From Chloroflexota bacterium (lineage in GTDB: Bacteria; Chloroflexota; Anaerolineae; Aggregatilineales; Phototrophicaceae): a stretch of DNA of 64,000 bases. Position numbers and translations under genes: made by a program. Of the stretch, positions 1,084 through 28,824 are shown piece by piece. The notes under the pieces were generated by a model that made no database searches, was not told the origin of the DNA, and was given only the letters and a program-made list of their open reading frames with translations. How positions within the stretch are numbered: position 1 is the stretch's first letter; every line of letters starts with the position of its first letter. Location of the stretch: positions 248,001-312,000 of the forward strand of contig JACRPS010000010.1 of the NCBI GenBank assembly GCA_016223085.1. Direction: 5' to 3'.

Positions 1084-1980
1084 ATGATAAGGAATGGTAT
1101 GCTGACGAATGCCGACCTGGAACAGTATCAGCGCGACGGTTATCTCGTCGTGCGCGGATTATTTTCACCGGAAGAAGTCGCTTTTTACCGTAACCACTAT
1201 ATGGCGCTGCGTGAAAGCGGCTCTTACGAGGGCGACTATGCCGGCGTGCCGCGCATTCTGGGGAACTCCGCCAAAACGGGCGATCTGCTGAAGGATGATG
1301 AACCTGACCCGCTCAAAGCGTACCCGCGCATGATTCATATGCACCGCTGGGATGAGGTTAGCCGGCGCTGGCTGCTGGACACGCGCCTGCGCGAAACGCT
1401 TACGGCGCTGCTGGGCGTGGAGCCGTTCGCCGTGCAGACGATGCTGTACTTCAAACCGCCGGGGGCGCGCGGGCAGGCCATGCACCAGGATCAGTATTAC
1501 CTGAAGGTGCAGCCGGGTACGTCAATGGCGGCCTGGCTGGCGCTCGACGACTGCGACGAGGCCAACGGCTGTATGCAGATGGTACCGGGCAGCCATACGT
1601 GGGATGTCCTGTGTACGATCAAAGCCGATACGACACAGAGCTTTACCGACGTGACTGTGCCGCTGCCGGAAGGCGCAAAACCTGTGCCGCAGATTATGAA
1701 AGCGGGCGACGTGCTGTTTTTCAACGGCCAGATGGTGCACGGCAGTTTCCCGAACACAACCACCAACCGCTTTCGCCGGTCGCTGATCGGCCATTACATC
1801 GTTGGCGATGCGCAAAAAGTAGCGGAGTTTTACCATCCCGCGCTGCGGATGGACGGCAGTGTGGTTGAACTGGGCAAGAGCGAAGGCGGCGGCTCGTGCG
1901 GCGTGTGGGTGGAACGCGACGGCGCGCCTGTGATCGAGATGACCGGCCTCAGCGGCGCGCGGGCCGAGGAACACGAATAG
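1084..1980 (+). CDS. Phytanoyl-CoA dioxygenase (PhyH) family protein
   Basis: A 298-residue Fe(II)/2-oxoglutarate-dependent oxygenase of the PhyH family. The iron site is visible as H134-x-D136 (in MHQDQYY) and distal H219 (MVHGS), and R231 in FRRSLIGHY is placed to bind 2-oxoglutarate. Length is normal for the family. The start is uncertain: the ATG at 1084 has GGTGA just upstream, but the ATG at 1099 (protein beginning MLTNADLEQYQRDGY) has AAGGAA four bases before it and fits the family N-terminus equally well. It is the first gene behind the rightward promoter. Its substrate is unknown; next to demethylation genes a hydroxylation of a methylated amine or an uptake-linked substrate is conceivable, but that is inference. 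Confidence 0.88.
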   Translation: MIRNGMLTNADLEQYQRDGYLVVRGLFSPEEVAFYRNHYMALRESGSYEGDYAGVPRILGNSAKTGDLLKDDEPDPLKAYPRMIHMHRWDEVSRRWLLDTRLRETLTALLGVEPFAVQTMLYFKPPGARGQAMHQDQYYLKVQPGTSMAAWLALDDCDEANGCMQMVPGSHTWDVLCTIKADTTQSFTDVTVPLPEGAKPVPQIMKAGDVLFFNGQMVHGSFPNTTTNRFRRSLIGHYIVGDAQKVAEFYHPALRMDGSVVELGKSEGGGSCGVWVERDGAPVIEMTGLSGARAEEHE

Positions 1981-1990
1981 AAAACGACCC

Positions 1991-2018
1991 GTAGGGACAC
2001 GATAGATCGTGTCCCTAC
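1991..2018. repeat. GTAGGG palindromic repeat, copy 1
   Basis: GTAGGGACACGAT (1991-2003) and ATCGTGTCCCTAC (2006-2018), perfect 13-bp arms around AG, just after the PhyH stop codon. Member of the dispersed family discussed in the findings. Confidence 0.8.
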
Positions 2019-2062
2019 GATTACATCTGCAAGAATAGGGTTTTGTTTAAGGAGTGAGGTTG

Positions 2063-3100
2063 ATGGCTGGGTTGCTGGAACGGCTGCAAAAAGATGTGGT
2101 GCTGGGCGCGGAAGGCTACCTGTTTGAACTGGAACGGCGCGGCTACCTGAAGGCCGGGGCATACGTGCCGGAAGTGGTGATCGAACACCCCAACGCCGTC
2201 GCCGAACTGCACCGTGAATTTTTACGCGCGGGGGCAGAAGTGATGGTCGCGTTTACGTATTACGGGCACCGCGCCAAGATGCGCGCCATCGGGCGCGAGG
2301 GCGATCTGGAACGGCTGAACCGTGATGCCGTGCGGCTGGCAAAGTCGGTGGCAAACGAGGGCGGCGCGCTGGTGGCCGGGAACGTCTGCAACACGTGGGA
2401 ATATGACCCGCAGAAGCCGGAAGAGTCGGAACAGGTCGTGCGCCCGATGTTTGAGGAGCAGGTGCAGTGGGCGTGTGAAGAAGGCGCCGACTTCTTTATC
2501 GCGGAAACGTTCAACCATCTGGGCGAAGCCCTGATCGCGCTGGACGTGATTAAGCAGACCGGACTGCCGGCGATGGTCACGTTTGCCGCCAAGAACGAAA
2601 CCAGCTATGACGACCAGCCCTGGGAAGACGCCTGCAAGATTCTGGAAGATCACGGCGCGGACGTGGTCGGCCTGAATTGCAGCCGGGGGCCGGACCTGAT
2701 GCTGGAATTGATCGAACGCATCCGCCCGAAAGTATCCTGCTATGTGGCGGCGCAGCCCGTACCTTACCATACCACCCACGAACAGCCCTATTTTCAGGTG
2801 CTCACCGATCCGCACGGCAACCGCGCCTTCCCGGTCGCGCTCGACCCGTTCCTGCACACCCGCTTTGAAATGGCCGATTTCGCCCGGCGAGCGCGGGACA
2901 TCGGCGTGAATTACATCGGCATCTGCTGCGGCGGCGCGCCGCATCATGTTCGGGCGATGGCCGAAGCGCTGGGGCGCACCGTGCCCGCCAGCGCCTATTC
3001 GCCGGACCTGTCGCTGCACCCGGTACTGGGCGCGAAGGCCGAAACCAAAGCGAAAGTCCAGCGGCATTTGCAGGATTTTGACCTGAAGCAGCAGTCGTAG
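2063..3100 (+). CDS. Betaine-homocysteine-type S-methyltransferase
   Basis: 345 residues of the homocysteine S-methyltransferase fold (BHMT / Pfam S-methyl_trans). The three zinc cysteines are present: one in GLNCSRGP and a pair in GICCGG near the C-terminus. The family moves a methyl group from betaine-like or sulfonium donors to homocysteine, giving methionine. The start at 2063 is chosen because AAGGAG (2049-2054) lies eight bases upstream; an in-frame GTG at 2054 would overlap that ribosome site. It stands between the PhyH gene and soxB and so probably performs the first demethylation of a betaine, with later genes removing the remaining methyl groups. It has no cobalamin-binding module, so it is not a MetH. 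Confidence 0.85.
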   Translation: MAGLLERLQKDVVLGAEGYLFELERRGYLKAGAYVPEVVIEHPNAVAELHREFLRAGAEVMVAFTYYGHRAKMRAIGREGDLERLNRDAVRLAKSVANEGGALVAGNVCNTWEYDPQKPEESEQVVRPMFEEQVQWACEEGADFFIAETFNHLGEALIALDVIKQTGLPAMVTFAAKNETSYDDQPWEDACKILEDHGADVVGLNCSRGPDLMLELIERIRPKVSCYVAAQPVPYHTTHEQPYFQVLTDPHGNRAFPVALDPFLHTRFEMADFARRARDIGVNYIGICCGGAPHHVRAMAEALGRTVPASAYSPDLSLHPVLGAKAETKAKVQRHLQDFDLKQQS

Positions 3101-3107
3101 GTGTATC

Positions 3108-4343
3108 GTGCTCCAGTTAATCCGTCATGGACTGAATGGCAAGCGGCCTTTCCCGCGCATGTGGCGAGAACATGAGCTGAAAGACCGCTACGAGGTGGTC
3201 ATCATCGGTGGCGGGGTGCATGGGCTGGCGGCGGCCTATTATCTGGCGCGCGATCATGGCATCACCGATGTGGCCGTGCTGGAAAAAAACTACATTGGCA
3301 GCGGTGGCAGCGGGCGCAATACGACCATCATCCGGTCGAATTACCTGACGCCGGAAGGTGTGCTGTTCTACGACGAAAGTGTGAAACTGTACGAAACGCT
3401 GGCGCTGGAACTGAACTTCAATCTGCTGTTCAGCCAGCGCGGCCACCTGACGCTGGCTCACAACGACAGTTCGGTGCGGACGATGCGCTGGCGCGCCGAG
3501 GTGAACCAGCTTCAGGGGGTGGACAGCCGCCTGATCTGGCCGGACGAAATCGCGCGGCTGTGCCCGCAGCTTGACCTGAGCGACCATCCCCGCTACCCGA
3601 TTCTGGCGGCGCTGTATCACCCGCCGGGCGGCGTGATCCGGCATGACGCGGTGGTATGGGGCTACGCGCGCGGCGCGGATTTACGCGGCGTCCACATCCA
3701 CCAGAAAACAGAGGTCACGGGTATTGACGTGACCAATAGCCGCGTGACCGGCGTTCGCACCACGCGCGGCACGATCAAAACCGGCGTGGTGCTGAACGCG
3801 ACGGCGGGCTGGGCGACACTCATCAGTGATATGGCGGGCGTGCGCCTGCCGATCACCACCCATCCGCTGCAAGCCTGCGTCAGCGAATCGCTTAAGCCGT
3901 TCCTGAATGTGATTATTGTGTCGGGGTCGCTGCATGTTTACGTCAGCCAGTCCGACCGGGGCGAGCTGGTGATGGGCGCGTCGGTTGACCCGTATACCTC
4001 GTACTCGCTCGACTCGACGCTGGGCTTTCTGGAAGGCTTAAGCGGCCATCTGCTGGAACTGATGCCCAGCCTGGCGCGCGTGAAAATCCTGCGCCAGTGG
4101 GCCGGGCTGTGTGACATGACGCCGGACTACAGCCCGATCATGGGTTTTACGCCGGTCGAGGGTTTTCTGGTGGACGTGGGCTGGGGCACGTATGGCTTCA
4201 AGGCGGGGCCGGTCAGCGGCAAACGCATGGCGGAACTGATCGCCACCGACCGGACGCCTGATCTGCTCGCGCCGTTCCGCCTGTCGCGCTTCGAGGAAGG
4301 GCGGCTGGTGGGTGAAAAGGGCGCGGCGTCGGTCGGGCATTAG
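3108..4343 (+). CDS. soxB: Sarcosine oxidase subunit beta
   Basis: A 411-residue DAO-family flavoprotein. The FAD dinucleotide-binding motif is VVIIGGGVHGLAAAYYLA (glycines 34-36). H179, in GGVIRHDAVVWGYARG, corresponds to the histidine that carries covalent FMN in heterotetrameric sarcosine oxidase; that assignment rests on recalled family knowledge. The beta subunit oxidises the N-methyl group of sarcosine, and electrons then pass to the alpha subunit. GTG at 3108 is seven bases after the previous stop, with AGG before it. The gene is followed by soxD, soxA and soxG in the classic soxBDAG order, which makes the assignment firm even though DAO proteins are hard to tell apart by sequence. Confidence 0.88.
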   Translation: MLQLIRHGLNGKRPFPRMWREHELKDRYEVVIIGGGVHGLAAAYYLARDHGITDVAVLEKNYIGSGGSGRNTTIIRSNYLTPEGVLFYDESVKLYETLALELNFNLLFSQRGHLTLAHNDSSVRTMRWRAEVNQLQGVDSRLIWPDEIARLCPQLDLSDHPRYPILAALYHPPGGVIRHDAVVWGYARGADLRGVHIHQKTEVTGIDVTNSRVTGVRTTRGTIKTGVVLNATAGWATLISDMAGVRLPITTHPLQACVSESLKPFLNVIIVSGSLHVYVSQSDRGELVMGASVDPYTSYSLDSTLGFLEGLSGHLLELMPSLARVKILRQWAGLCDMTPDYSPIMGFTPVEGFLVDVGWGTYGFKAGPVSGKRMAELIATDRTPDLLAPFRLSRFEEGRLVGEKGAASVGH

Positions 4344-16402: not shown

Positions 16403-16433
16403 GACTGGCCCGCGATCCGGGCGCGGGCCAGTC
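16403..16433 (-). terminator. Terminator of the giant secreted protease gene
   Basis: Minus strand: GACTGGCCCGCG, a 7-base loop, CGCGGGCCAGTC, then CCCTTTTCTC. A 12-bp perfect stem with a short T-run, starting 17 bases after the stop codon. Confidence 0.7.
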
Positions 16434-16449
16434 GAACGGGGGTCATCGG

Positions 16450-19400
16450 CTAAGGCAGCACCTGGAGCGCGTCCACGCTCAGGACTTTGCCATAGTCCCA
16501 GTTTTCGATCACGATCTGGTGCGTGTCCGCCTTGCCAAAGCCGTAGAAGGCGACTGGCGTGAAGTAGGTCGTGCGTGTGGACTGGCTGAAGTCGGTGCAA
16601 TCCTGGCCTTCATCGGTGGTCACGCACAGGCGAATCTTGCGGCTGGCGCGGGTGCTGCCAGTCTGGTACAGCACCAGCGCGTTACCATCCACCTCTACCT
16701 GGGCAATCGTGCCGACGGCAGTGGTATTATGCTCGGTGCGCTGCCAGGGGCCACGTGCCGGGCCGTAGGGTGTGGACAGGAGTGTCCAGAAGGCCGAGGG
16801 ACTGTAAGCGATGTTCGGGTTGGTGTCGTCATGGAGTGGGCCGCTTGCCAGCGCCGCGCCCGGCGCGCCAAACACTACCACCGCATCCACCTGTAGCCAG
16901 TCTGTCAGTGGCACACCGGCGGGCGGCGTGTCAATGTGGCGCAACTCCGCTACATAGACCCCGTTGGGCAGGCCGTGTATCGCAAAGGCATACTGGTATG
17001 CGGTGATTGGGTTGGGGCGGTCGCCGTTGACGGCCAGCCAGGTCGGTTCGCCGCTGCCGGCGCTGGTATCAGTGGTCACGGTCTGGCAGGTTTCGCCCGT
17101 GCCGTCAAACGTGCCATCGAAGGCGGTCTTCAGAACGTAACACAGCCGCATGTCCGAACCGTAAGCATCGGCCTGCGTTAGCACTGAGAAACCCGTACCG
17201 CTGAATTCGAGCGCGATGGCGGCGTTGGCTGTTTTGGTACGAACCAGCGTGCCGCCGTAGGCGCGGGTAGATTTCACCGTTGTCCAGGATGAGCCACCGG
17301 TGTTCAGCAAACCATTGTTACCCACCAGGAAGCTGTCGTAGATGCCCGGTGTCAGCGTCGTGCCGAAGATGACCTGGAAGCCGTCAATACGGAACTGCCC
17401 CGTCGTCAACGTGCGGAACGAGAGTGTGACGTTGGCCGCATTCGCCAGTACCGGCAGATTGGTGCTGTTGAGCACAATCTGGTTTTCGGTCTTCAGGTTG
17501 GTGATCCTGATGCAGTCAGCAGTTGTCACGTTGTTGGCACAGACCAGCACTTCTCCAGAGTTGAGACTGCTGGCCGGGCCGGTGTACAGGATGACGGTCG
17601 CGGCGCTGGCATTGTTCAGCCGCAGCGTCGCCACTGGGCCGGCGTAGGCGCTGGATAGGCGCTTGCTGTTGTCCACCACGCCGACATAGCTGCCGCCGCT
17701 GAAGCCGCGCGCCGCCGTGCCGCTGAAGGTGTTCCAGCGATTGGCGGGCAGCAGTTGCAGAACCTTCACGCCGCCGCTGGCTGCATCCTCGTTGAATTGG
17801 CCGGACGTGGTGATCGCGGGTGGCAGTGCCTCGCCGAAGATGCGCACGAAGTCAATCACCAGCCGGACGGGCGCGTAACGCGGGTTGCGCGGCGGGACAT
17901 TCGTTTCGGCGTTGCGGACGCGCACGAAGTAGGGGGTCGCAGGGTTCAGCCCGGTGACGGTGCGGCTGGTCGTGTAACTGGCCGTAGACCTCTCGTTCTG
18001 GTAGATGTAACATCTGCTGGTTGCGTCAGCCCAATCGGCGTCGCCGTCCGTATCGTAGCAGATTTCCATCTCGCCGCCGTACAGGTCGGCCAGCGCACCG
18101 ACCTCGAAGCCGGTCGCGCTCACAAAGCTGAATTCCATCGTGGCGGTGTCGTCGCTTGTCCAGCGCGCCTGCCCGCCGGAGTAGCTAGCGCTGAAGATGC
18201 TCGTCCAGGCCACTTCAGGCGGGTTCACCGTACCGTTCTGGAACTTCAGCCCCGGATGCACATCTTCGTACAGGCCGGGTTGCAGTGGCGCGGCGCTGCT
18301 GCCGATCTCGATGGCGTCCAGCGTCAGCGTACCGGCGTCGAGCGTGGTGATCGAAACCCGGCGTTCGCCGGTGTAACCCGCGTCCACCAGTGGGACGGCG
18401 ATGGTTGGCTGCGTGCCCGTGCCGGTGTTGTTCAGCACCGTGACACAGCTTCGGTTGCCGTTATCCACCCGCTGCGAGCAGACTTCCATCGGGGCGTTGC
18501 CCGCGCCGACGTTGCGGTAGATGATGATGGAGTCCGCGTTGAAGGTGCGGAACAGCAGACCCGCGCCGATGACATTGGCAATCGTGTCGTAGTTCTTGCC
18601 GGAGTAACGCGCCGCTGCGGTGCCACTGACCGAGCGCCAGCCCTGACCGTAGTACAGGAACCGGCCATCGGCAGCGCGGTTGGCGTAGCTGGTTTCGTAG
18701 CGTGTGCCGACGGTGTCCAGCCGGTTGGCAGGCTGCGCGTCATCGTAAATCTGGATGGCGTCCACATGCATCGTGATTGGCGTGGCGGTCGGCAGGTGCG
18801 GCGCTGGCGTGTTGTTGTCCGCCAGCATTTGCACCGAAGCGGTGTAGTCACCGTCCTGCAAACCGAGGATCGTCCGGGCGGCGCGGTAGCGGGCAGCCGC
18901 GCTCTGGTTGTCGTAGGTCGTGCAGTCGCCCGCCTGCGTTTGCGCCAGGTTTAGCCCCAGACCGCTCGCCCAGCAGATTTCTACCGCGTCGGCTTTTGCG
19001 TCGAACACGAAGTAGACCGAGAAGCCCGTGCCGTTGAAATCAAACAGCACATGGTCGCCTGCCGTTTGCGTCTGGTGGACCGAACCGCCGGAGGCGCTGG
19101 TGACAGTTGGCGTTGTAAACGTGCCGGTATATTCCAGGCTGCCAAAGCTGTCTTCGTAGTACCCGGCGGTCAGCGCCGCGCCGGCGTTCGTCGAACGCAC
19201 GAAGTCCAGCGGCATGGGCTTGCCATCAGCGTTGCGCAGCAGAACCCAGCGCAGGCCGCTTCCGGTTAGCGTTACCGATTGCGTTTGCTGGAAGCCAGCC
19301 CCAACGTTGGAAATGGTGGCCGGATTCGCGTTAGGCGTTGTGCCGCAGTTCTTCGAGCCATCGGCGCTGAACGCACCCGCGCAGACCGCTACGCTGCCAT

Positions 19401-22400
19401 AGGTGGACTTCAGTTCGCGTCCGTATTCAAACGCGCTTGTGTTGAGTTCAAAGTAGACCGCCGCGCCGCGCATACTGCCGATATGCTGGCTGCCGCCGGA
19501 TGCCGCTGCTGCCGCCACTTCGTTGAAACTGAAGTACGGGAAGTAGACGATGCGCGGGTCAATGTTTTCCACGCCGCCGGTTACGGATGCGGCGATGTCG
19601 CTCACGTCGCCCAGCACGTCCACCCGGTCAACCAGCAGCGGTTTGGTGGGGTCGAGATTCGTCAGCACCACATCGTATTCGCCCGGCGCAAAACCGACGT
19701 AGGTCAGCGCCGACGGCGCCCGGGCGCTGCTGATTGCGGTGTTCGCGTTGGGCGTGGGCAGGGACACCGGTGCGCCTTCCACCGTCAGCGAGTAGTTGCG
19801 GCTGGTCAACGTACTTTCCGCCAGCACGATGCTGAAGCCCGTGCCGTTGAAGGTAAACGACAGCGTTTGCCCGCTGCTGCCAAGCGCCGTGCTCTTGACG
19901 CGCCTGTCGGTGGCGCTGGCTTCAGTCAGGAAGCCGGATGCCCAGTTACCGCCATAAGTCAACTGGCCGCTGTTTTCCTGGTGGATACCAGGGAGCAGTG
20001 CGCCCGTTGTGTTCAGCACGCCAATCGCGTCCACGATCAGAGTTGTGCCCGGCGTCAGGTTGGTGATGCTAACCTGATAGTTGCCGACCGCACCCAGCGT
20101 GAAGGTGGTGTTGCTGCTGCCAACCAGCGTGACGGTTGTGGGTGAACAGGTACGCGTGAAGGGGGACGCGGCCAGCGTGGCGCAGAACTGCACGTTGGTG
20201 CTGGTTGAGCCGATGTGGTGCAGCACTACTACGTTAGCGCCCGTCACGGCGAAGCTCAGCGTCGCGCCCAGACGGTTGCTGGTGTGGTTGCTCTGGTTGA
20301 GGTTCGCCGGCGCGCGGCTGCCCAGGTTTACCGTCCAGGCGGCGTTGCTCGGCCCATACAGGAACAGCGGCTTGCCATCGGCAGCGTGGGCGTTGTCGTC
20401 GTAAATGCCGGGTGACAGCGCCGGGCTGTACTGGCCGTAGATTTCGATGCCGTCTACTGTGAACTTGTTGCGCGTGCCATCGGTTTCAGTGATCGTGACC
20501 TTGTAGGTGTCATAGGGCAGGCCGGTTACGCTGTGGGCGTGGCCGTAGTACGTCACGCTACGGTTGCCGGTCACATCCACCGTGTACGAAGCATCCGGCG
20601 GGTCAGGTATCTCGTTAACGACGATTTGCAGGTTGCTGCTGGCGCTGTCAACCAGCGTGAGCAGCGAGAAACCCGTGCCCTCAAACTCAAACGTGAGACT
20701 CGCCCCTGGCACAGTGGACTGCATGGCCGCGCCGTTGGCGTAGCTGCTGGAGGTGATGTTGCGCCAGTCGTTGACCGTATCGTTGAGATTCGGGTCAGTC
20801 GTGGCGTTGTAAATCAAACCCTCGGTGGTTTCGGTGTACAGGCCGGGTTGCAGCGGCGCGGCGTCCAGCAGTTCGATGGCGTCCAGGTTGAACGTACCGG
20901 CATTCAGCGTCGTGATCGAAACGACGTGCGGGCCAGTACTGCCCAGGTTGACGTTGTAGGCCGACTGGTAAGCCGTGCCGCCGTCGCTGCGGATGTCCAC
21001 GCAGGTGAACAGGTTGTAGTCCACCACGAATGTGCCGGCGGTATAGGGCGCGTAACACAGGCGCAGTGGCGCGTAGCCCGAACGCAGATCGCGGTACAGG
21101 CGGACCGTGTCGGCACCGTTGGTGCGGAAGACGATGCCTGCGCCATAGGCTTTCACCTGGTCGTAGTTCTGGCCGGAATAGCGGCTCGCCGCCGTGCCGG
21201 TGAACGACCGCCACAGGCTGCCCAGGTAGTTCAACTGGTTACTGGCAGCCCGGTTGGCGAAGCTGGTTTCATGGCGCGCGCCGTTTGGCAGCGGCGTCAG
21301 TTCGTTCAGGTCCTGCCAGCGGTCGCCGTAGACACGAATCGCGTCCACCTGCATGGAATTGCCGCTGATGACCGTGCCGGTGACGGTATAGTTCGCGCCG
21401 ATATGCTGGATGACCGCCGCGTAGGTGCTGTCTTCCAGCCCGGCGACAGTGCGAGCCGCCTGATACACGGCGGTGGCGCTGTAGTTGTTAAACTGGCTGC
21501 ACGTGCCGTTTGTCAGCACATTGTCTACCGTCGCGGTTTGCGCCACATCTTTCAGCCAGCACAGTTGTACCGGACCGCCGCGATTATCCAGCGTGAACAG
21601 CGTCGAGAAGCCGGTGCCTTCAAAGCGGAAGAACACACCCTCGTTCTGTTCCTTGATAAACGCCACGCTGCCGCCGGAGGCGCGCGTGTTGTTGACCGTC
21701 GTGACCGAGCTGTCCGGCGCGGTGCCATCATTGCACGGGAAGCCGGGCTGGTCGTCGTCGAAGTAACACAGGTTCGGCACGTTCTGTTCGTAGATGCTCG
21801 CCTGCAGCGGCGCGGACGACGACAGCACCTGCACACGGTCCAGGTTAAACGGCTGGTTGGTCAGGCTGAAGATTTCGACCGTGTGCGCCCCGTTGCTGCC
21901 CGGCGTGCCCCAACCCTGCGGGCCAAAGTCGCTTTCGGCGATCACCAGCGGGTTATGGGTCACCAGGGGTGCGGTTGTGGTGCGCAGGGGTTTGGTGACA
22001 CAGAAGGTATTCTGGGTGTCCGCCGGGTGCAGTTGCCCGCGATCCACGCACACCATGATGCTGGTGCTGTCGGTGGTCGTGGCGTAGCGCCACCACGAGA
22101 AGCTGGTGGCATCATTGGGAATCTGGAAGCTGAAGAACGGCCCGGCCTTCGTCACCGTCGAGATGATGCTGGTCAGGCTGTTGCCGGACGTGCGGGTGTT
22201 GTTGGTGTCCAGCAGCCAGGTGTCCTCCAGCCCACCGCCAAACAGGATGCGATCCCGGTCGGTGTCCTCGGTTGTGCCCAGCGGCAGGACGCCGGCGATC
22301 TGGCGGTCAAAGACAACGATGGAGTCAATCACCATGCGCCCGGTCGCCGGAAGCGAGTCAATGTGCAGCGTGACTTCGTGTTCGATGTCCGGGTTAAAGC

Positions 22401-25400
22401 CGTAGAACGGGCGGTACACGTTCCAGATGGGCGCCGTGCCCGCGCCGAGCGCGTTGTCAAACTGCTGGCAGCGCTGGGGCGTGCCCGTGTCTGCCGGGGC
22501 GACGCAGATGGTGTACTTCGCGCCCTGCCGGGGGAGGGTACGTGTCTGTTCCAGCGCCGTGCCGATGGCAAAGCCGGTGCCCCTGAACGTAAACGTCACG
22601 TCGGCGACGCCCGCGTTGGTGGTTGCCATCGCAATCCCGTTGGACGTGCCCCGGTCGGTGATTTCGTTCCAGCCGAAGAACAGCGGCAGCATCTGCGTCT
22701 CGCGGACTTCATGGAAGCCGGGCAGCAGCACCGTGTTATCCACCAGCACGCCGATGGCGTCAATGTTCAGGATGGCATTGGCGCGGCTGATGATCTCGAC
22801 CGTGTGCGCTTCACCCTGGCGCAGCCGGGTGCACGCGACTGTGTAAGCCGTTGCCTGCCGGTTGGAGATGTAGAAGCCGTTGTTGGGTGTGGTGGTCGTT
22901 TTGATACCGGTCGCCGCCGTCGTCCGGCAGGTGATGCCGGCGCGGGTGGCAACCTTGCTGCCATTCCAGTTCAGCGGCTGGTCGTCCACCCGCAGTTCCC
23001 AGAAGCTGCCAGTGGTCGCGCCCTGCATATACAGCGCGAAGCCGGTGCCAACAAACTTGAAGCTGGCGGTCGCACCGGACTTGACGCTGCGGTGCAGCGT
23101 GTTGTTGATGTTACCTTCGCTGTAGAGCGGCGACCAGTTGGTGTCGTAGGTGAAGGCGAAGCTGGTATCGTCGTGCAGGCCACCATAGGGCAGGGACGAC
23201 ACAACTTCAACCTCGACCGTGTTGGTGGTCGCGGTGCTTTCGTTGACGGTGTAGCGGAAGCTGAACGTGCCTTTTTCGCCGGACTCGGCCAGCAGTTCAA
23301 CGAGGCTGTCGTCATCATTGTTGGCGTTGTTGATGGCCGCCTGAATCGCAGCTTCGGAGATGTTCAGCGCGCCCGCGTTCGGCGGATTCAGGCTGCCGGG
23401 AACCAGCGCATAGGTATACGGGTAATCCGCGCCGGGGGTATCCGTCCACAGCGGCGTGCCGTTCGGGCCAAGATCGTCCTCGATCTCGCCATCTTCCGAA
23501 TAGAAGAAGTTGTCGTCAAAGCTGACGTAAGGCCGCAGCTTAAACCGGATGATCGTTGCCGGCTCGGTGGGCGGGGCGGCCTCGACCGTCACCGCCTGAT
23601 TGATCGGCTGGGTAAGCTGGGAGTCATTCGTCGGTGTGATGAGCACCGTCACCGTGCCGGGGCTGTCGTTGGTGGCGGTGGTGTTGCCGGCCAGGTCCTG
23701 CACGTGGTAGGTGAACGTCACCTGCGAACCCGCCGGTGCGCCGACCGTGTACAGGTTCTTCGGCGGGCAGTAGGTCGCCTGCGTTTCGTTGGTGGCCGGG
23801 TCCACCGTCAGCTTCAACGGTTGGCCACCGCAGGCATTGGCCGGGTTGGTATCGTACATCGTCGGGTAATCGCTGATGGTGTAGGTGTACGGTGGGAAAC
23901 CCCCTTCGCCGACCAGCGAAACGATGATGGGCGCGGGTTTGCCGGCATCTGCCGGGGGTGTTGTCAGGACACGGTCTTCTTCGACCGCCGTAGTGCTGAT
24001 GTCGGCGGCGCTGATGGCGCGGTATTCGTAAGCGCCGATGTCAATCGTGCCGTTTTCGATGCGGTTGCGGTTCAGCACGTCCCTGTCAGGCAGGCCGCTG
24101 GCGAGCGCGTTGCTGCCGTCGTCCACGCCGTCGTCGGGGCTGGATGTGGCGGCGCCGACAATCTGATAGGGGTCATTCGGGGCGATGGTCGGGCCAATCA
24201 CCCGAAAGGCGGCAGGTGCTGCACTCAGTTCCAGGCGGTTGCCATTGCCCGCCTCAATGGGGTTAACGCAGATACCGCCGTAAGCGTTCTGACCAACGAT
24301 CGTTGGGTTGCCGCTCATGAATATCCAGTTGAACTGCGCGCCCAGTTCGGGGCCGCTGCTGGAGCCAATCCGGTGACACTGCGCGCTGCCCACGTCGGCA
24401 TCGGCCAATGGCGAGTTCACGGTGTTGTCATAAAACAGGTTGTTGAAAATGTCCCAGTTGCCGCTGCCGTTGGTGGGCGAGGAGTCCGGCTGCCCACGCA
24501 GAATGATGGCGCTGGTATCGCCAGCGCCGATGGATTTGTGGCCGGCGACGGTGTTATTGATAAAGCGGAAGCGGCGTCCCGGATTGAGGTGGACAACCGG
24601 GCCGGTATTGGTGTTGTTGGAGAAGGCGTTGCCGAAGACGCTCACCTGTCGGCTGTCATCATTGCGAACCAGGATAATGGACAGCGTGCCGTTGTTAAGA
24701 AAACGGTTGTTATAGATGTTGGCGACGCTGTTGTTGATATTCACCACCGGCTCATAGATGCCAGCGCCCGGTGCTTCTGTGCTGTTATTGGCGATAAAGC
24801 TGTTGAACTGGAGCGTGATCGGGGTCGAAGTGCCGGAACCGTCAGTAATGTTGACGCCGGCGCCCAGGCGGCTGTTGTTATCGCGGAAGATGTTATTTTC
24901 GACCACCACGCTCTGGCTGCCAATGCCCTGATACCCGCCGACAATAACCGGGTTGCCGCCAACGATCTTCGTAAACAGGTTGTTGCGAACGATAGAACCA
25001 CTGGAATCGCCCAGCGAGATACCAGCTAACGTATTAAACAGCGGGGCGGTGGTGTGGCGGCTGGCGGTTCGGAACACAAAACCATCAACGGTGATGTTAT
25101 CGGCAGTGATAAAAATGCCGCCGCCGCCTCTGGCACCATCATCGTAACCGGTGATGTTCACCCAGAAGATACTGTCCGGCGTAGTGGATTGGTCAATAGC
25201 CCGATTCTGATTCTGGAAGATTTGCCGCGCCCGGTCATACGAGATCATCCTGACGCCGTCAGTTACCGCGCCGTCCAATATGTTAACGGGGGTAACGTAC
25301 TCACCCGGCATCAGAATCACGCAGTCGCCGGCATTGGCGCGGGCCAGGGCGTGCGCCGGGTGCAGGTACGGGTTGGCGAGGCTGTTGCCATACGTGCCGT

Positions 25401-28400
25401 CGAAGGTGGCGGTCAGCTTGTTCGGGTCAACAAAGCGCAGCGTGCCGGTGCCGCAGCTTAATCCGGCTTCCGAGGTCACGCTGTTGATGATCGGATAATC
25501 CGGCTGCGGGTTGCCCAGCACAGCCAGCCCGGCGCCGGTGCGCATGTCGAAGCCGTTGGCTTCCTCACTTTGCGCGTCGTACAGGTCAACAGCGTGGGAT
25601 TGCAGATAATTGATGATTTCGTCACGGGTGTTCGCGCCGATGTTGGCATTGGGATTGGAACGAATCAGCGCCGCCAGCCCGGCGATATGGGCCGCTGCCG
25701 CCGACGTGCCGGTGAAGCCAGTATCCTCTGCTGGGTCGCCAGGGTTGCAGTCAAACCGGGCGCCCTGCGAGGTGGTGACGCCGGCCACACTGGCAATGTC
25801 CGGCTTAAAGGCGGTACGGGATGTAAATGGGCCGGTCAGCGGCGCGCCGCCGCCCGCGCTAAAAATCGGCCCGCGGGAGCTATCCGCTTCCAGCGGAAAA
25901 CCGTCCACCGGGTAGGAGCAGACCGCGCCGACCGTGAAGGCATTGGGCGAGTCGGCAGGGCGGCCAATCGTGCTGGTGGTGTTGATGTTGGTGGCCGAGC
26001 CGGTCACGCTGTTGACTTTGCCGTTTCCAGTCACCTGCACCTGCACGTAGGCCGGGCCGTTGGCAACCGCGCTGATGGTTAAATCAGCGGTGCAGGTCGG
26101 GTCGCTGGTTGTGCCGCAGGTGTTGTCAATCACAAACTGGTGCGCCGGCGCCTGCGTCGGCAGTCGAGGTGTGTAAGCTGCCGCGTGCTGCAGCGACATG
26201 GTCAGGTCTTTCGTCGGGGCAACGGTGTTCCAGTCATCCCAACTGACGTTTACCCGGTCGCCCCGGCTGACGCTAAGGCTAACAGTCGTTGTGCCGATGG
26301 CATAATTGAAGCTGGCGAAACGCCCGGTATTGTTGCCCGCGCTGACGATGACCAACCGCCCCGCGTTTTTTGCGGCGGTGATCTGGTCATACATCGTGCC
26401 GGAAGCATCCAGACCTTCGTCACCGTCGCCCGGGCTGGCGACCACGCCCACGTCCATCGTAATCAGGATGATGGGAAAGCCGGCGGAGTTCGCCGCACTG
26501 ATGCGGGTGGCGAGTTCCGAAGCAGTGGTGGCGCGGTACAGCGTCATCCGCGCGTTGGGCGCGAGGTCGCACAGTACTTCGGCCACGCGCGTGCCGTGAT
26601 TGGTCGTGCCGACGCCGCCCACCGGGACGCGACTGGGCAGGCAGGTGGTGGGAAGTTCGGCAGCGGGCACACTCGAAATACCGGCAAAGCCGGTGTCAAT
26701 CACGGCGATGCTTGTGCCCGCGCCTTTGATGTTGGCAACATGCCAGTCGTTCACGCCCAGGATGTCAAAGCCTTCGGTGACTGCCGTGCCGCTGGGGGCC
26801 GCTGGCGGCGCGTCCGCCGAACCGGTTGATGCCGCCTGCGCAGCAGGGCGAATCTGGATAATCGGGTCGGCGTTAACGAGCGCGATAAACCCGGCTAGCG
26901 GGACAAGGGCTTCGACGTGGTAATCGCTGACAAATGTCACTTCGCCGCCAACGGCAGCCACAATCGGCGCGACGGTGGCGCCAGTCTGGCCTTCCGCCGC
27001 CCACACTTCCACCGTCAGCCGCATCTGTTCGTCCAGCGGCAGGAAGGTTTCGTTGGCCTGCTGGACCGCTCCGGCCTCGTCGCCGGCGGCGTACAGTTCA
27101 ACCACTTTCACCAGTACCGGCGCGAGTTTCGCCTTTTCATCCTCCGTCAGAGCCATTGGAGCGGGTGTCACGGCTTCCAGCAGCGCCGTCGGCACGTACA
27201 CGGCGATGTCGTCCAGCAGCGCGGCACCGGTGGCGGCAAACGCCAGTTGCCCGCCGGGAAGCGGCGCGGCGTCGGTGAAGTCCAGTTCAGCCGTGCCGTT
27301 CAGGCTGGCGGTGAGGTGCCCACCCTGTACGACCAGATTCAGCGCGTGCCAGGTGTTCGGCGCGTGCGCCGCCGGGATGCTGGCAAGGGGTACCAAACCC
27401 ACGCCATCATTGCGATACAGCACGGTTTGCGCGGCCTCAATCGCCAGCACGTAGCCGCTGCCATCGCTGGTGCGGAAGGGAATGCTGATACCCGAAGGCG
27501 CGCCATCCACCGCTTCCAGCAGAGTCAGCCGCGCTTCCAGACGGAAATCGGTCAGGTAGGGCGGGTTGGTGGGCAGCAGGCTGCTGCCTGCCGCCAGTTG
27601 CAGCGCGTGGTTGGCGTCGCCGTCCGCGACGATGCTGCCCTCACCGGTCAGCGTCCAGCCGGTTAGTTCGCCCTCAAAATCGGCGCCGAGGAGAAGTATT
27701 TCCGGTTCAGGGGTGGCTTCGGGCGTCTGCTCCGGCGTAACTTCCGGCGGCAGTGTCGCTTCCGGTGTCTGTTCCGGCGTGACTTCTGGCGCAACTGTCG
27801 CTTCGGGCGTCTGCTCCGGTGTGACTTCCGGCGTCAGTTCCGGTGTTGTCTCCGGCGGAGCGGTCGGTTCGGCAGTCACTTCCAGAGTGGGGATGGCCGT
27901 CGGCGGAATCACGGGCGGCGTGATCGGTGCAGTCAGGGCGCTGACCGATACTTCATCCAGGCTGAGGCCGCCGGTGGCGGTGCCAAAAACGACCAGTCCC
28001 GGCGGCAGCGGATTCGGGTCGGTGTACACGATCTGCGGCGCGCCGTTGACGGTGACAACGATCAGACCGGCATAAACCTGAAGGTTCAGGGTGTGCCACA
28101 GGACAGGCACGCCTTCCGGCAGTGGGGGCTGCGCCGCGCCCTGCGCTAGCAGCCCCGCGCCGCGATAGAGGGCGACGCTGCCGCTGGAATCGAGCGATAC
28201 GGTGTAATTTTCCGCGCCGCTGCGGACGGCCACGCTGGCAGTTTTGCCGCTTTCAACCCGCAGGCGCGCTGACAGCGCAAAATCCGAAACAACAAACGCG
28301 CTGATCGTCGCGACCTGTTCCGGTTCGCCGGTGGTTAAAAACAGGTTGCCGTTATCGTTCACCATGCCCCAGCCGGGCGTCAGCAGCCAGCCGTCAGGAT

Positions 28401-28698
28401 TGCCGTCCTGGAAATCGTCGCTGAAGGATGTGGGCAGCGTGGGTACGGCGGTTGGCTGTTCGGTGACTATGGGCGTTACTTGCGCCGTTGGGGCGGCAGT
28501 GGGTTCGCCGGTGGCTTCGACGGTTGGCGGTGGAGGCGCGTCAGCCGGGGTTTCCTCCGGCGTGGGTTCTTCGGTTGCCTCCTGGGCGCGCACGGTGCTG
28601 ACCAGCGACGCCAGCGGCAGCGCCAGGTTGAAGACGAGCGAAAAGACGGTTAAGCCCGTGACCAGCACGTTTAACCATCGTTTATGCAGGGAGTTCAT
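16450..28698 (-). CDS. Giant secreted subtilisin-like protein with beta-helix and ~15 repeats
   Basis: 4082 residues, uninterrupted. A signal peptide (WLNVLVTGLTVFSLVFNLAL, cut near VRAQ) leads into Pro/Thr/Glu-rich linkers with 14-residue units of the type PEVTPEQTPEAT, alternating with two concanavalin-like (LamG/DUF1080-like) domains. Next is a complete S8 domain: D668 (AVIDTGF), H701 (NHGTRVAE), oxyanion N789 (SAGNN), S999 (GFTGTSAAAAH). Residues about 1150-1470 form a right-handed beta-helix rich in NNIF and NNRFLNN turns. From about 1840 to the end run some 15 units of about 150 residues with W, G-SV, F-GTGF and VDAI-V motifs, most with two cysteines. No LPXTG, membrane anchor or dockerin is seen. 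ATG 28698 follows GGAGG and lies downstream of a good promoter, so in-frame starts further upstream are rejected. Confidence 0.9.
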   Translation of the reverse strand: MNSLHKRWLNVLVTGLTVFSLVFNLALPLASLVSTVRAQEATEEPTPEETPADAPPPPTVEATGEPTAAPTAQVTPIVTEQPTAVPTLPTSFSDDFQDGNPDGWLLTPGWGMVNDNGNLFLTTGEPEQVATISAFVVSDFALSARLRVESGKTASVAVRSGAENYTVSLDSSGSVALYRGAGLLAQGAAQPPLPEGVPVLWHTLNLQVYAGLIVVTVNGAPQIVYTDPNPLPPGLVVFGTATGGLSLDEVSVSALTAPITPPVIPPTAIPTLEVTAEPTAPPETTPELTPEVTPEQTPEATVAPEVTPEQTPEATLPPEVTPEQTPEATPEPEILLLGADFEGELTGWTLTGEGSIVADGDANHALQLAAGSSLLPTNPPYLTDFRLEARLTLLEAVDGAPSGISIPFRTSDGSGYVLAIEAAQTVLYRNDGVGLVPLASIPAAHAPNTWHALNLVVQGGHLTASLNGTAELDFTDAAPLPGGQLAFAATGAALLDDIAVYVPTALLEAVTPAPMALTEDEKAKLAPVLVKVVELYAAGDEAGAVQQANETFLPLDEQMRLTVEVWAAEGQTGATVAPIVAAVGGEVTFVSDYHVEALVPLAGFIALVNADPIIQIRPAAQAASTGSADAPPAAPSGTAVTEGFDILGVNDWHVANIKGAGTSIAVIDTGFAGISSVPAAELPTTCLPSRVPVGGVGTTNHGTRVAEVLCDLAPNARMTLYRATTASELATRISAANSAGFPIILITMDVGVVASPGDGDEGLDASGTMYDQITAAKNAGRLVIVSAGNNTGRFASFNYAIGTTTVSLSVSRGDRVNVSWDDWNTVAPTKDLTMSLQHAAAYTPRLPTQAPAHQFVIDNTCGTTSDPTCTADLTISAVANGPAYVQVQVTGNGKVNSVTGSATNINTTSTIGRPADSPNAFTVGAVCSYPVDGFPLEADSSRGPIFSAGGGAPLTGPFTSRTAFKPDIASVAGVTTSQGARFDCNPGDPAEDTGFTGTSAAAAHIAGLAALIRSNPNANIGANTRDEIINYLQSHAVDLYDAQSEEANGFDMRTGAGLAVLGNPQPDYPIINSVTSEAGLSCGTGTLRFVDPNKLTATFDGTYGNSLANPYLHPAHALARANAGDCVILMPGEYVTPVNILDGAVTDGVRMISYDRARQIFQNQNRAIDQSTTPDSIFWVNITGYDDGARGGGGIFITADNITVDGFVFRTASRHTTAPLFNTLAGISLGDSSGSIVRNNLFTKIVGGNPVIVGGYQGIGSQSVVVENNIFRDNNSRLGAGVNITDGSGTSTPITLQFNSFIANNSTEAPGAGIYEPVVNINNSVANIYNNRFLNNGTLSIILVRNDDSRQVSVFGNAFSNNTNTGPVVHLNPGRRFRFINNTVAGHKSIGAGDTSAIILRGQPDSSPTNGSGNWDIFNNLFYDNTVNSPLADADVGSAQCHRIGSSSGPELGAQFNWIFMSGNPTIVGQNAYGGICVNPIEAGNGNRLELSAAPAAFRVIGPTIAPNDPYQIVGAATSSPDDGVDDGSNALASGLPDRDVLNRNRIENGTIDIGAYEYRAISAADISTTAVEEDRVLTTPPADAGKPAPIIVSLVGEGGFPPYTYTISDYPTMYDTNPANACGGQPLKLTVDPATNETQATYCPPKNLYTVGAPAGSQVTFTYHVQDLAGNTTATNDSPGTVTVLITPTNDSQLTQPINQAVTVEAAPPTEPATIIRFKLRPYVSFDDNFFYSEDGEIEDDLGPNGTPLWTDTPGADYPYTYALVPGSLNPPNAGALNISEAAIQAAINNANNDDDSLVELLAESGEKGTFSFRYTVNESTATTNTVEVEVVSSLPYGGLHDDTSFAFTYDTNWSPLYSEGNINNTLHRSVKSGATASFKFVGTGFALYMQGATTGSFWELRVDDQPLNWNGSKVATRAGITCRTTAATGIKTTTTPNNGFYISNRQATAYTVACTRLRQGEAHTVEIISRANAILNIDAIGVLVDNTVLLPGFHEVRETQMLPLFFGWNEITDRGTSNGIAMATTNAGVADVTFTFRGTGFAIGTALEQTRTLPRQGAKYTICVAPADTGTPQRCQQFDNALGAGTAPIWNVYRPFYGFNPDIEHEVTLHIDSLPATGRMVIDSIVVFDRQIAGVLPLGTTEDTDRDRILFGGGLEDTWLLDTNNTRTSGNSLTSIISTVTKAGPFFSFQIPNDATSFSWWRYATTTDSTSIMVCVDRGQLHPADTQNTFCVTKPLRTTTAPLVTHNPLVIAESDFGPQGWGTPGSNGAHTVEIFSLTNQPFNLDRVQVLSSSAPLQASIYEQNVPNLCYFDDDQPGFPCNDGTAPDSSVTTVNNTRASGGSVAFIKEQNEGVFFRFEGTGFSTLFTLDNRGGPVQLCWLKDVAQTATVDNVLTNGTCSQFNNYSATAVYQAARTVAGLEDSTYAAVIQHIGANYTVTGTVISGNSMQVDAIRVYGDRWQDLNELTPLPNGARHETSFANRAASNQLNYLGSLWRSFTGTAASRYSGQNYDQVKAYGAGIVFRTNGADTVRLYRDLRSGYAPLRLCYAPYTAGTFVVDYNLFTCVDIRSDGGTAYQSAYNVNLGSTGPHVVSITTLNAGTFNLDAIELLDAAPLQPGLYTETTEGLIYNATTDPNLNDTVNDWRNITSSSYANGAAMQSTVPGASLTFEFEGTGFSLLTLVDSASSNLQIVVNEIPDPPDASYTVDVTGNRSVTYYGHAHSVTGLPYDTYKVTITETDGTRNKFTVDGIEIYGQYSPALSPGIYDDNAHAADGKPLFLYGPSNAAWTVNLGSRAPANLNQSNHTSNRLGATLSFAVTGANVVVLHHIGSTSTNVQFCATLAASPFTRTCSPTTVTLVGSSNTTFTLGAVGNYQVSITNLTPGTTLIVDAIGVLNTTGALLPGIHQENSGQLTYGGNWASGFLTEASATDRRVKSTALGSSGQTLSFTFNGTGFSIVLAESTLTSRNYSLTVEGAPVSLPTPNANTAISSARAPSALTYVGFAPGEYDVVLTNLDPTKPLLVDRVDVLGDVSDIAASVTGGVENIDPRIVYFPYFSFNEVAAAAASGGSQHIGSMRGAAVYFELNTSAFEYGRELKSTYGSVAVCAGAFSADGSKNCGTTPNANPATISNVGAGFQQTQSVTLTGSGLRWVLLRNADGKPMPLDFVRSTNAGAALTAGYYEDSFGSLEYTGTFTTPTVTSASGGSVHQTQTAGDHVLFDFNGTGFSVYFVFDAKADAVEICWASGLGLNLAQTQAGDCTTYDNQSAAARYRAARTILGLQDGDYTASVQMLADNNTPAPHLPTATPITMHVDAIQIYDDAQPANRLDTVGTRYETSYANRAADGRFLYYGQGWRSVSGTAAARYSGKNYDTIANVIGAGLLFRTFNADSIIIYRNVGAGNAPMEVCSQRVDNGNRSCVTVLNNTGTGTQPTIAVPLVDAGYTGERRVSITTLDAGTLTLDAIEIGSSAAPLQPGLYEDVHPGLKFQNGTVNPPEVAWTSIFSASYSGGQARWTSDDTATMEFSFVSATGFEVGALADLYGGEMEICYDTDGDADWADATSRCYIYQNERSTASYTTSRTVTGLNPATPYFVRVRNAETNVPPRNPRYAPVRLVIDFVRIFGEALPPAITTSGQFNEDAASGGVKVLQLLPANRWNTFSGTAARGFSGGSYVGVVDNSKRLSSAYAGPVATLRLNNASAATVILYTGPASSLNSGEVLVCANNVTTADCIRITNLKTENQIVLNSTNLPVLANAANVTLSFRTLTTGQFRIDGFQVIFGTTLTPGIYDSFLVGNNGLLNTGGSSWTTVKSTRAYGGTLVRTKTANAAIALEFSGTGFSVLTQADAYGSDMRLCYVLKTAFDGTFDGTGETCQTVTTDTSAGSGEPTWLAVNGDRPNPITAYQYAFAIHGLPNGVYVAELRHIDTPPAGVPLTDWLQVDAVVVFGAPGAALASGPLHDDTNPNIAYSPSAFWTLLSTPYGPARGPWQRTEHNTTAVGTIAQVEVDGNALVLYQTGSTRASRKIRLCVTTDEGQDCTDFSQSTRTTYFTPVAFYGFGKADTHQIVIENWDYGKVLSVDALQVLP
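27690..27860 (-). repeat. 42-base coding tandem repeats (PEVTPEQTPEAT linker)
   Basis: About three imperfect 14-codon units inside the giant gene encode a Pro-Glu-Thr linker. The DNA copies differ at synonymous sites, so they are not fresh duplications. Confidence 0.7.
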
Positions 28699-28735
28699 AA
28701 CGGCCTCCGAAATGAACGCGGGTTGGCGTATGCGC

Positions 28736-28764
28736 AGTATAGACGTGCCTTGCCAACCGGCCAA
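28736..28764 (-). promoter_or_regulatory. Promoter of the giant secreted protease gene
   Basis: Minus strand TTGGCC (28764-28759), 17-base spacer, TATACT (28741-28736). Predicted start near 28730 gives a leader of about 30 bases before ATG 28698. Confidence 0.55.
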
Positions 28765-28824
28765 TAGCACAAATGGAATAACAGGCTGTCTTAACTACCG
28801 CTCAATACTGGATTCTGTTACGGC

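Follow-up and report, generated by a model that had tools for sequence, protein, structure and literature searches.

A giant secreted subtilisin-like protein with fifteen predicted jelly-roll repeats, conserved across one family of Anaerolineae

A single gene of Aggregatilineales (an order of Anaerolineae, Chloroflexota) encodes a 4082-residue protein that joins a subtilisin-type (S8) protease to LamG-like domains, a predicted beta-helix and an array of fifteen repeats, for which we propose (with a probability of roughly 55%) the role of a secreted, self-maturing protease tethered by a multivalent glycan-binding rod to the cell surface or matrix. The evidence in favour of this reading includes the catalytic tetrad kept in 17/17 sequences, an AxST motif found in all of them, the frozen array of alternating A and B repeats, and the jelly-roll fold matches of the repeat models. 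The window (i.e., the whole stretch of DNA analysed) spans 64,000 nucleotides, and the features of the gene are listed in Table 1.

The gene occupies positions 16450-28698 (-) within a single open frame without stops (ORF 16450-28770, minus strand). Its 4082 codons read through from ATG 28698, which we consider the likely start because GGAGG stands 5 bases upstream and the orthologues align from that residue (the closest one begins at exactly the same residue). The intact 12.2-kb gene described by an earlier reading made from the sequence alone (hereafter the sequence-only reading) is thus upheld, with a ribosome-binding site and a terminator of its own. A promoter-like site ahead of the start codon and a terminator just past the stop suggest a one-gene transcription unit, set among ordinary neighbours (DUF2344 upstream, Indigoidine_A-like PsuG and a PfkB kinase downstream); Rfam and tRNA searches gave no match. 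Antisense to the gene runs a 1498-aa open frame (20533-25029, plus strand), most likely a GC-rich shadow frame. A chimeric assembly, which would have undone the sequence-only reading, is excluded because orthologues share both the architecture and the flanking genes, and a mobile, plasmid or viral gene was rejected as well (no plasmid match, a single weak viral S8 match, fixed synteny).

Table 1. Features of the giant gene and its product (window positions; res, residues of the protein)
Feature	Position	Strand	Basis
Promoter-like hexamers TTGGCC-17-TATACT	28736..28764	(-)	consensus scan only
Shine-Dalgarno GGAGG, 5 nt before ATG 28698	28704..28708	(-)	sequence
Sec-type signal peptide, res 1-38 (VRA|QE)	28585..28698	(-)	sequence; conserved in orthologues
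LamG-like domain 1, res ~90-255	27934..28431	(-)	PF06439, E 0.00026 on its own
Pro/Thr/Glu linker, res 256-335	27694..27933	(-)	tandem repeat at 27716-27838
LamG-like domain 2, res 336-520	27139..27693	(-)	PF06439, E 5.5e-8
Propeptide-like domain, res 535-645	26764..27096	(-)	17-sequence alignment; no Pfam hit; putative assignment
S8 subtilase domain, res 646-1045 (D668, H701, N789, S999)	25564..26763	(-)	Pfam, 17-sequence alignment, PDB
Right-handed beta-helix, res ~1081-1560	24019..25458	(-)	AlphaFold2 and VIA-align; PF13229 in 3/20 sequences
Two cadherin-like domains, res 1565-1837	23188..24006	(-)	Foldseek to cadherin EC pairs, E ~1e-4
Array of 15 jelly-roll repeats, BABABABABABABAB, res 1838-4082	16453..23187	(-)	motif, BLAST, profile, AlphaFold2
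Intrinsic terminator, 12-pair stem and T-rich tail, 17 nt past the stop	16403..16433	(-)	scan

The protein starts with a signal peptide that carries KR and lacks a twin arginine, so that of the 'Tat/Sec-type' secretion first proposed the Sec part stands and the Tat part falls. As had been remarked, neither end shows an anchor or sorting motif. The two LamG-like domains on Pro-Thr-Glu linkers were recovered by Pfam from the whole protein (PF06439, 42.1 bits over two stretches). Directly ahead of the protease lies a domain of ~110 residues that is conserved in all orthologues (17-sequence alignment); we call it propeptide-like, an assignment that stays putative because Pfam does not recognise residues ~535-645. 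Shortly before the catalytic domain it holds AxST(G/S) (residues 622-626), of which AxST is present in all 17 aligned sequences, a candidate autoprocessing junction that makes self-processing of the protein plausible.

The protease domain scored 46.3 bits against Peptidase_S8 (PF00082, cut-off 21.8), and its closest PDB entry was subtilisin BPN' (E 1.5e-13). Both the Asp/His/Ser triad and the oxyanion Asn (D668, H701, S999 and N789) are invariant in 17/17 sequences, which are 36-70% identical to the protein, in line with the catalytically complete protease of the sequence-only reading; the enzyme is apparently active, judging from these residues. With other subtilases it shares the catalytic tetrad and motifs; what sets it apart is a large insertion that separates N789 from S999, together with the 3000 residues of modules downstream. 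In one orthologue (L064/L098) the loop between the catalytic Asp and His (VIDKAGSHRN) is lost and all four catalytic residues are kept.

The ~150-residue unit of the C-terminal array, of which about fifteen copies had been noticed before, was found fifteen times by a motif, by repeat-versus-repeat BLAST (down to E 3e-36) and by a profile (15 genomic matches, E 3e-42 to 3e-20). The copies are 9-49% identical to each other (mean 21%) and belong to two types, A and B, that alternate strictly here and, one branch aside, in most orthologues; type B has an invariant cysteine pair (64 A-B dyads). The likeness of the closest pairs, R4/R10 (38%) and R5/R11 (46%), points to an old block duplication. The repeats matched no Pfam family over its cut-off, which agrees with the initial impression that they fit no family one could name. 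CE2_N (PF17996) came nearest, its profile reaching 23.0 bits against a cut-off of 27.9 (best single repeat E 0.022), and neither the CE2_N nor a CBM cut-off was reached by any repeat on sequence; relatives of the repeat within the class attain CE2_N with E down to 8e-21. Cleaved_Adhesin (PF07675) gave no hit at E<=10 and none in the 64 dyads at E<=0.01, and nothing significant emerged from PDB sequence searches, whether the query was the whole protein or the profile of the repeat. Judged by these profiles, the repeat is a new sequence family, a jelly roll not yet covered by Pfam.

Its fold was approached with an AlphaFold2 model of R10-R11, for which the 64 A-B dyads came from the protein itself and from named genome contigs (pLDDT 96.4, pTM 0.92). 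The modelled A repeat matches CE2/CEX-associated jelly rolls (Z 12-14; 3nqh 14.4; 2waa 13.3, rmsd 2.5, 114 aligned) and the B repeat matches CBM35/CBM6 (Z 11-12.5; 2w1w 12.5, 1uy1 11.5), with the gingipain Kgp adhesin domains K2/K3 also among the fold matches (Z 11.1); absence of a family from a VIA-align match list does not exclude that family. Foldseek TM values of the two-domain model stay low, since each target aligns to a single domain. The new fold that the sequence-only reading had thought possible was therefore rejected: the confident prediction (pLDDT 96) is of a known galactose-binding-type jelly roll, remotely CE2_N-like, and every fold in the protein is already known. The A repeats share their fold (and the sub-threshold score) with the jelly rolls of CE2 and CEX, but stand in a tandem array, without an esterase domain and below the Pfam cut-off. 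The B repeats are 11-14% identical to CBM35/CBM6, a likeness of fold only, and their carbohydrate binding is putative.

The S8 plus beta-helix architecture is common to 16 further loci in MAGs titled Aggregatilineales, Anaerolineae or Chloroflexi. Throughout one taxonomic family of Anaerolineae, orthologues built in the same way occupy a fixed chromosomal place, some of them in genomes from sludge and reactors. In the other families checked within the class, no combination of the S8-beta-helix core with the repeat was seen. Because FtsK, DUF2344, PsuG and PfkB lie beside many of the orthologues, the giant gene appears to be vertically inherited. One orthologue belongs to a genome titled 'Chloroflexi bacterium isolate CFX2', linked to the CFX2 of the literature by name only. 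Among the nearest relatives, 40 of 61 genomes have repeat-profile matches, often in frames of 3300-5000 aa.

In close relatives each repeat finds its best match in the repeat of the same position (15/15 in L083 and in L081, 14/14 in L080, and 9/9 of the repeats on the contig of L079), and each carries invariant residues of its own. This argues that the array is frozen among close relatives, unlike a recombining adhesin, and recombining, phase-variable repeats were rejected for the closest of them. In more distant genera the correspondence is blurred and repeat counts range from 12 to 18. The A/B alternation is lost in the branch L059-L062 and L086-L091, and L059-L062 also lack the DUF2344/PsuG neighbours. 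Several loci of this branch, in the same genus as the giant gene (L059-L062, L086, L087, L089, L091), hold the S8-beta-helix core without alternation, as a paralogue or relocated copy; L087 (JAPUDW010000131.1) is titled Bacteroidetes and is probably mislabelled, the same contig occurring in a genome placed in the genus of the giant gene.

Further afield, the repeat was detected in 51 of 298 genomes of the class (E 1e-6) and in 15 of 251 genomes of the phylum (E 1e-7). The search for it in other giant Chloroflexota proteins, advised by the sequence-only reading, yielded three adjacent secreted ones in a single genome (G218; L125:142-16215, G218:C8), with 4-9 copies each and an N-terminal papain-type domain in one, a trypsin-type domain in another and an unassigned N-terminal part in the third. 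Their repeats are closely similar (mostly 76-81% mean identity), which in contrast to the frozen array would reflect recent expansion. Two further giant frames of the class (L124:270-12416 and L126:4658-18106; 4049 and 4483 aa) have scattered copies, and a 434-aa protein from the same genome as the giant gene (L127:1885-3186, G000:C29) has a single weak one. Four repeats follow another S8 domain in G141 (L135). Fusions to a GSDH dehydrogenase domain and to beta-helix proteins show that the repeat is not protease-specific; taken with the papain-, trypsin- and S8-type partners, they suggest a general extracellular module that is frequently combined with proteases.

The array may instead be the product itself, i.e., a structural adhesin or surface fibre whose protease would mainly process its own precursor during assembly, in gingipain/haemagglutinin style. 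Against the glycan-binding tether speaks that galactose-binding-type jelly rolls can serve a purely structural role. In favour of the fibre, the array accounts for more than half of the protein, with repeat number and order fixed; a fibre is compatible with the confident two-domain model (pTM 0.92), and besides the K2/K3 matches the beta-helix resembles the pneumococcal adhesin PfbA (Z 22.4). We nevertheless regard this explanation as doubtful, since the same repeat is joined to other protease classes and enzymes, which points to a tether, and since classical adhesin arrays vary in repeat number whereas this one is constant among close relatives.

The beta-helix bears on another alternative. 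Residues 1041-1837 were modelled with AlphaFold2 from an alignment of 20 sequences (pLDDT 72.5, pTM 0.65), and VIA-align confirmed the beta-helix of the sequence-only reading, with Z values of 28.0 (RbmB; 298 aligned, rmsd 2.5), 26.6 (an alginate epimerase/lyase), 25.3 (Pel9A) and 22-25 (PL6 lyases). Such neighbours would suit a dual matrix-degrading enzyme, in which the protease and an active polysaccharide-lyase helix were held on their substrate by CBM-like repeats. The PL6/PL9 fold is present, yet, judged from an alignment of 20 sequences, the helical coils have no invariant Lys or Arg, the invariant polar columns are mostly Asn, and a near-invariant His (18/20) is Phe in this very protein. 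Without an invariant Lys/Arg, lyase activity is unlikely and the dual enzyme improbable. The choice-of-anchor Q profile stayed below its cut-off (NF041518, 14.6 versus 25 bits). The stretch between the beta-helix and the repeats, absent from the sequence-only reading, probably corresponds to two cadherin-like domains, matched by Foldseek at moderate pLDDT (Pfam Cadherin_5/Big_9 in 5/20 sequences, this protein not among them). A digestive, essentially soluble scavenging protease with repeats merely for bulk and stability would agree with the lack of an anchor signal and with the extracellular subtilisin-like peptidases expressed by granule heterotrophs (PMC5460018), but is hardly credible given a position-specific conservation of the repeats beyond the needs of a mere spacer.

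We reason that a secreted protease held by a glycan-binding rod would work as follows. The single-gene unit encodes the 4082-aa Sec precursor; the propeptide-like domain (residues ~535-645) would help the protease to fold, and a cut at or near AxST(G/S) would free the N-terminal LamG part. The mature S8 domain, whose tetrad is kept in all orthologues, would then cleave extracellular protein, while the beta-helix, the cadherin-like pair and the fifteen predicted jelly rolls would form a stiff rod (~60 nm, if each domain adds ~4 nm) that may fix the protease to polysaccharide, either on the surface of the cell itself or in the biofilm matrix, each repeat having its own fixed role in the array. 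No anchor is visible, so that retention at the surface is putative; a general tether for secreted proteases would agree with the finding that other Anaerolineae join the same repeat to papain-, trypsin- and S8-type enzymes. More speculatively, the fifteen repeats could be lectin modules, each with its own specialisation, whose order along a rigid rod is frozen in evolution; together they would form a hetero-multivalent 'address' and dock the protease at a single defined site on the filament surface or in the biofilm matrix. Papain- and trypsin-type proteases of other Chloroflexota would have arrived at this principle separately; we put this forward tentatively.

The gingipains RgpA/Kgp of Porphyromonas gingivalis share the plan of signal, propeptide, protease, Ig-like domain and tandem jelly-roll adhesins (PMC10319874). 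The protein described here, from an unrelated phylum, has an S8 instead of a C25 protease, no PF07675 or T9SS-tail hit in Pfam, added beta-helix and LamG domains, and fifteen repeats instead of a few. The gingipains are the nearest functional parallel, their plan being realised here with unrelated parts. Our searches of the literature turned up no description of this protein, its domain combination or its frozen order; what appears new is that fifteen divergent repeats are frozen in position and that the repeat recurs joined to several classes of protease.

Giant genes are comparatively prevalent in Anaerolineae, whose cells live in aggregates, and often encode surface proteins (PMC10608941), the role of which is largely unstudied. 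In anammox granules, filamentous Chloroflexi adjoin extracellular S-layer protein and were proposed to metabolise such matrix protein (PMC10202920), and Chloroflexi genomes from such granules express amino-acid degradation genes (PMC5460018). A giant gene whose catalytic core is conserved, whose locus is fixed and whose array is frozen family-wide offers a concrete candidate for how granule-building filamentous Chloroflexi may hold or digest matrix protein.
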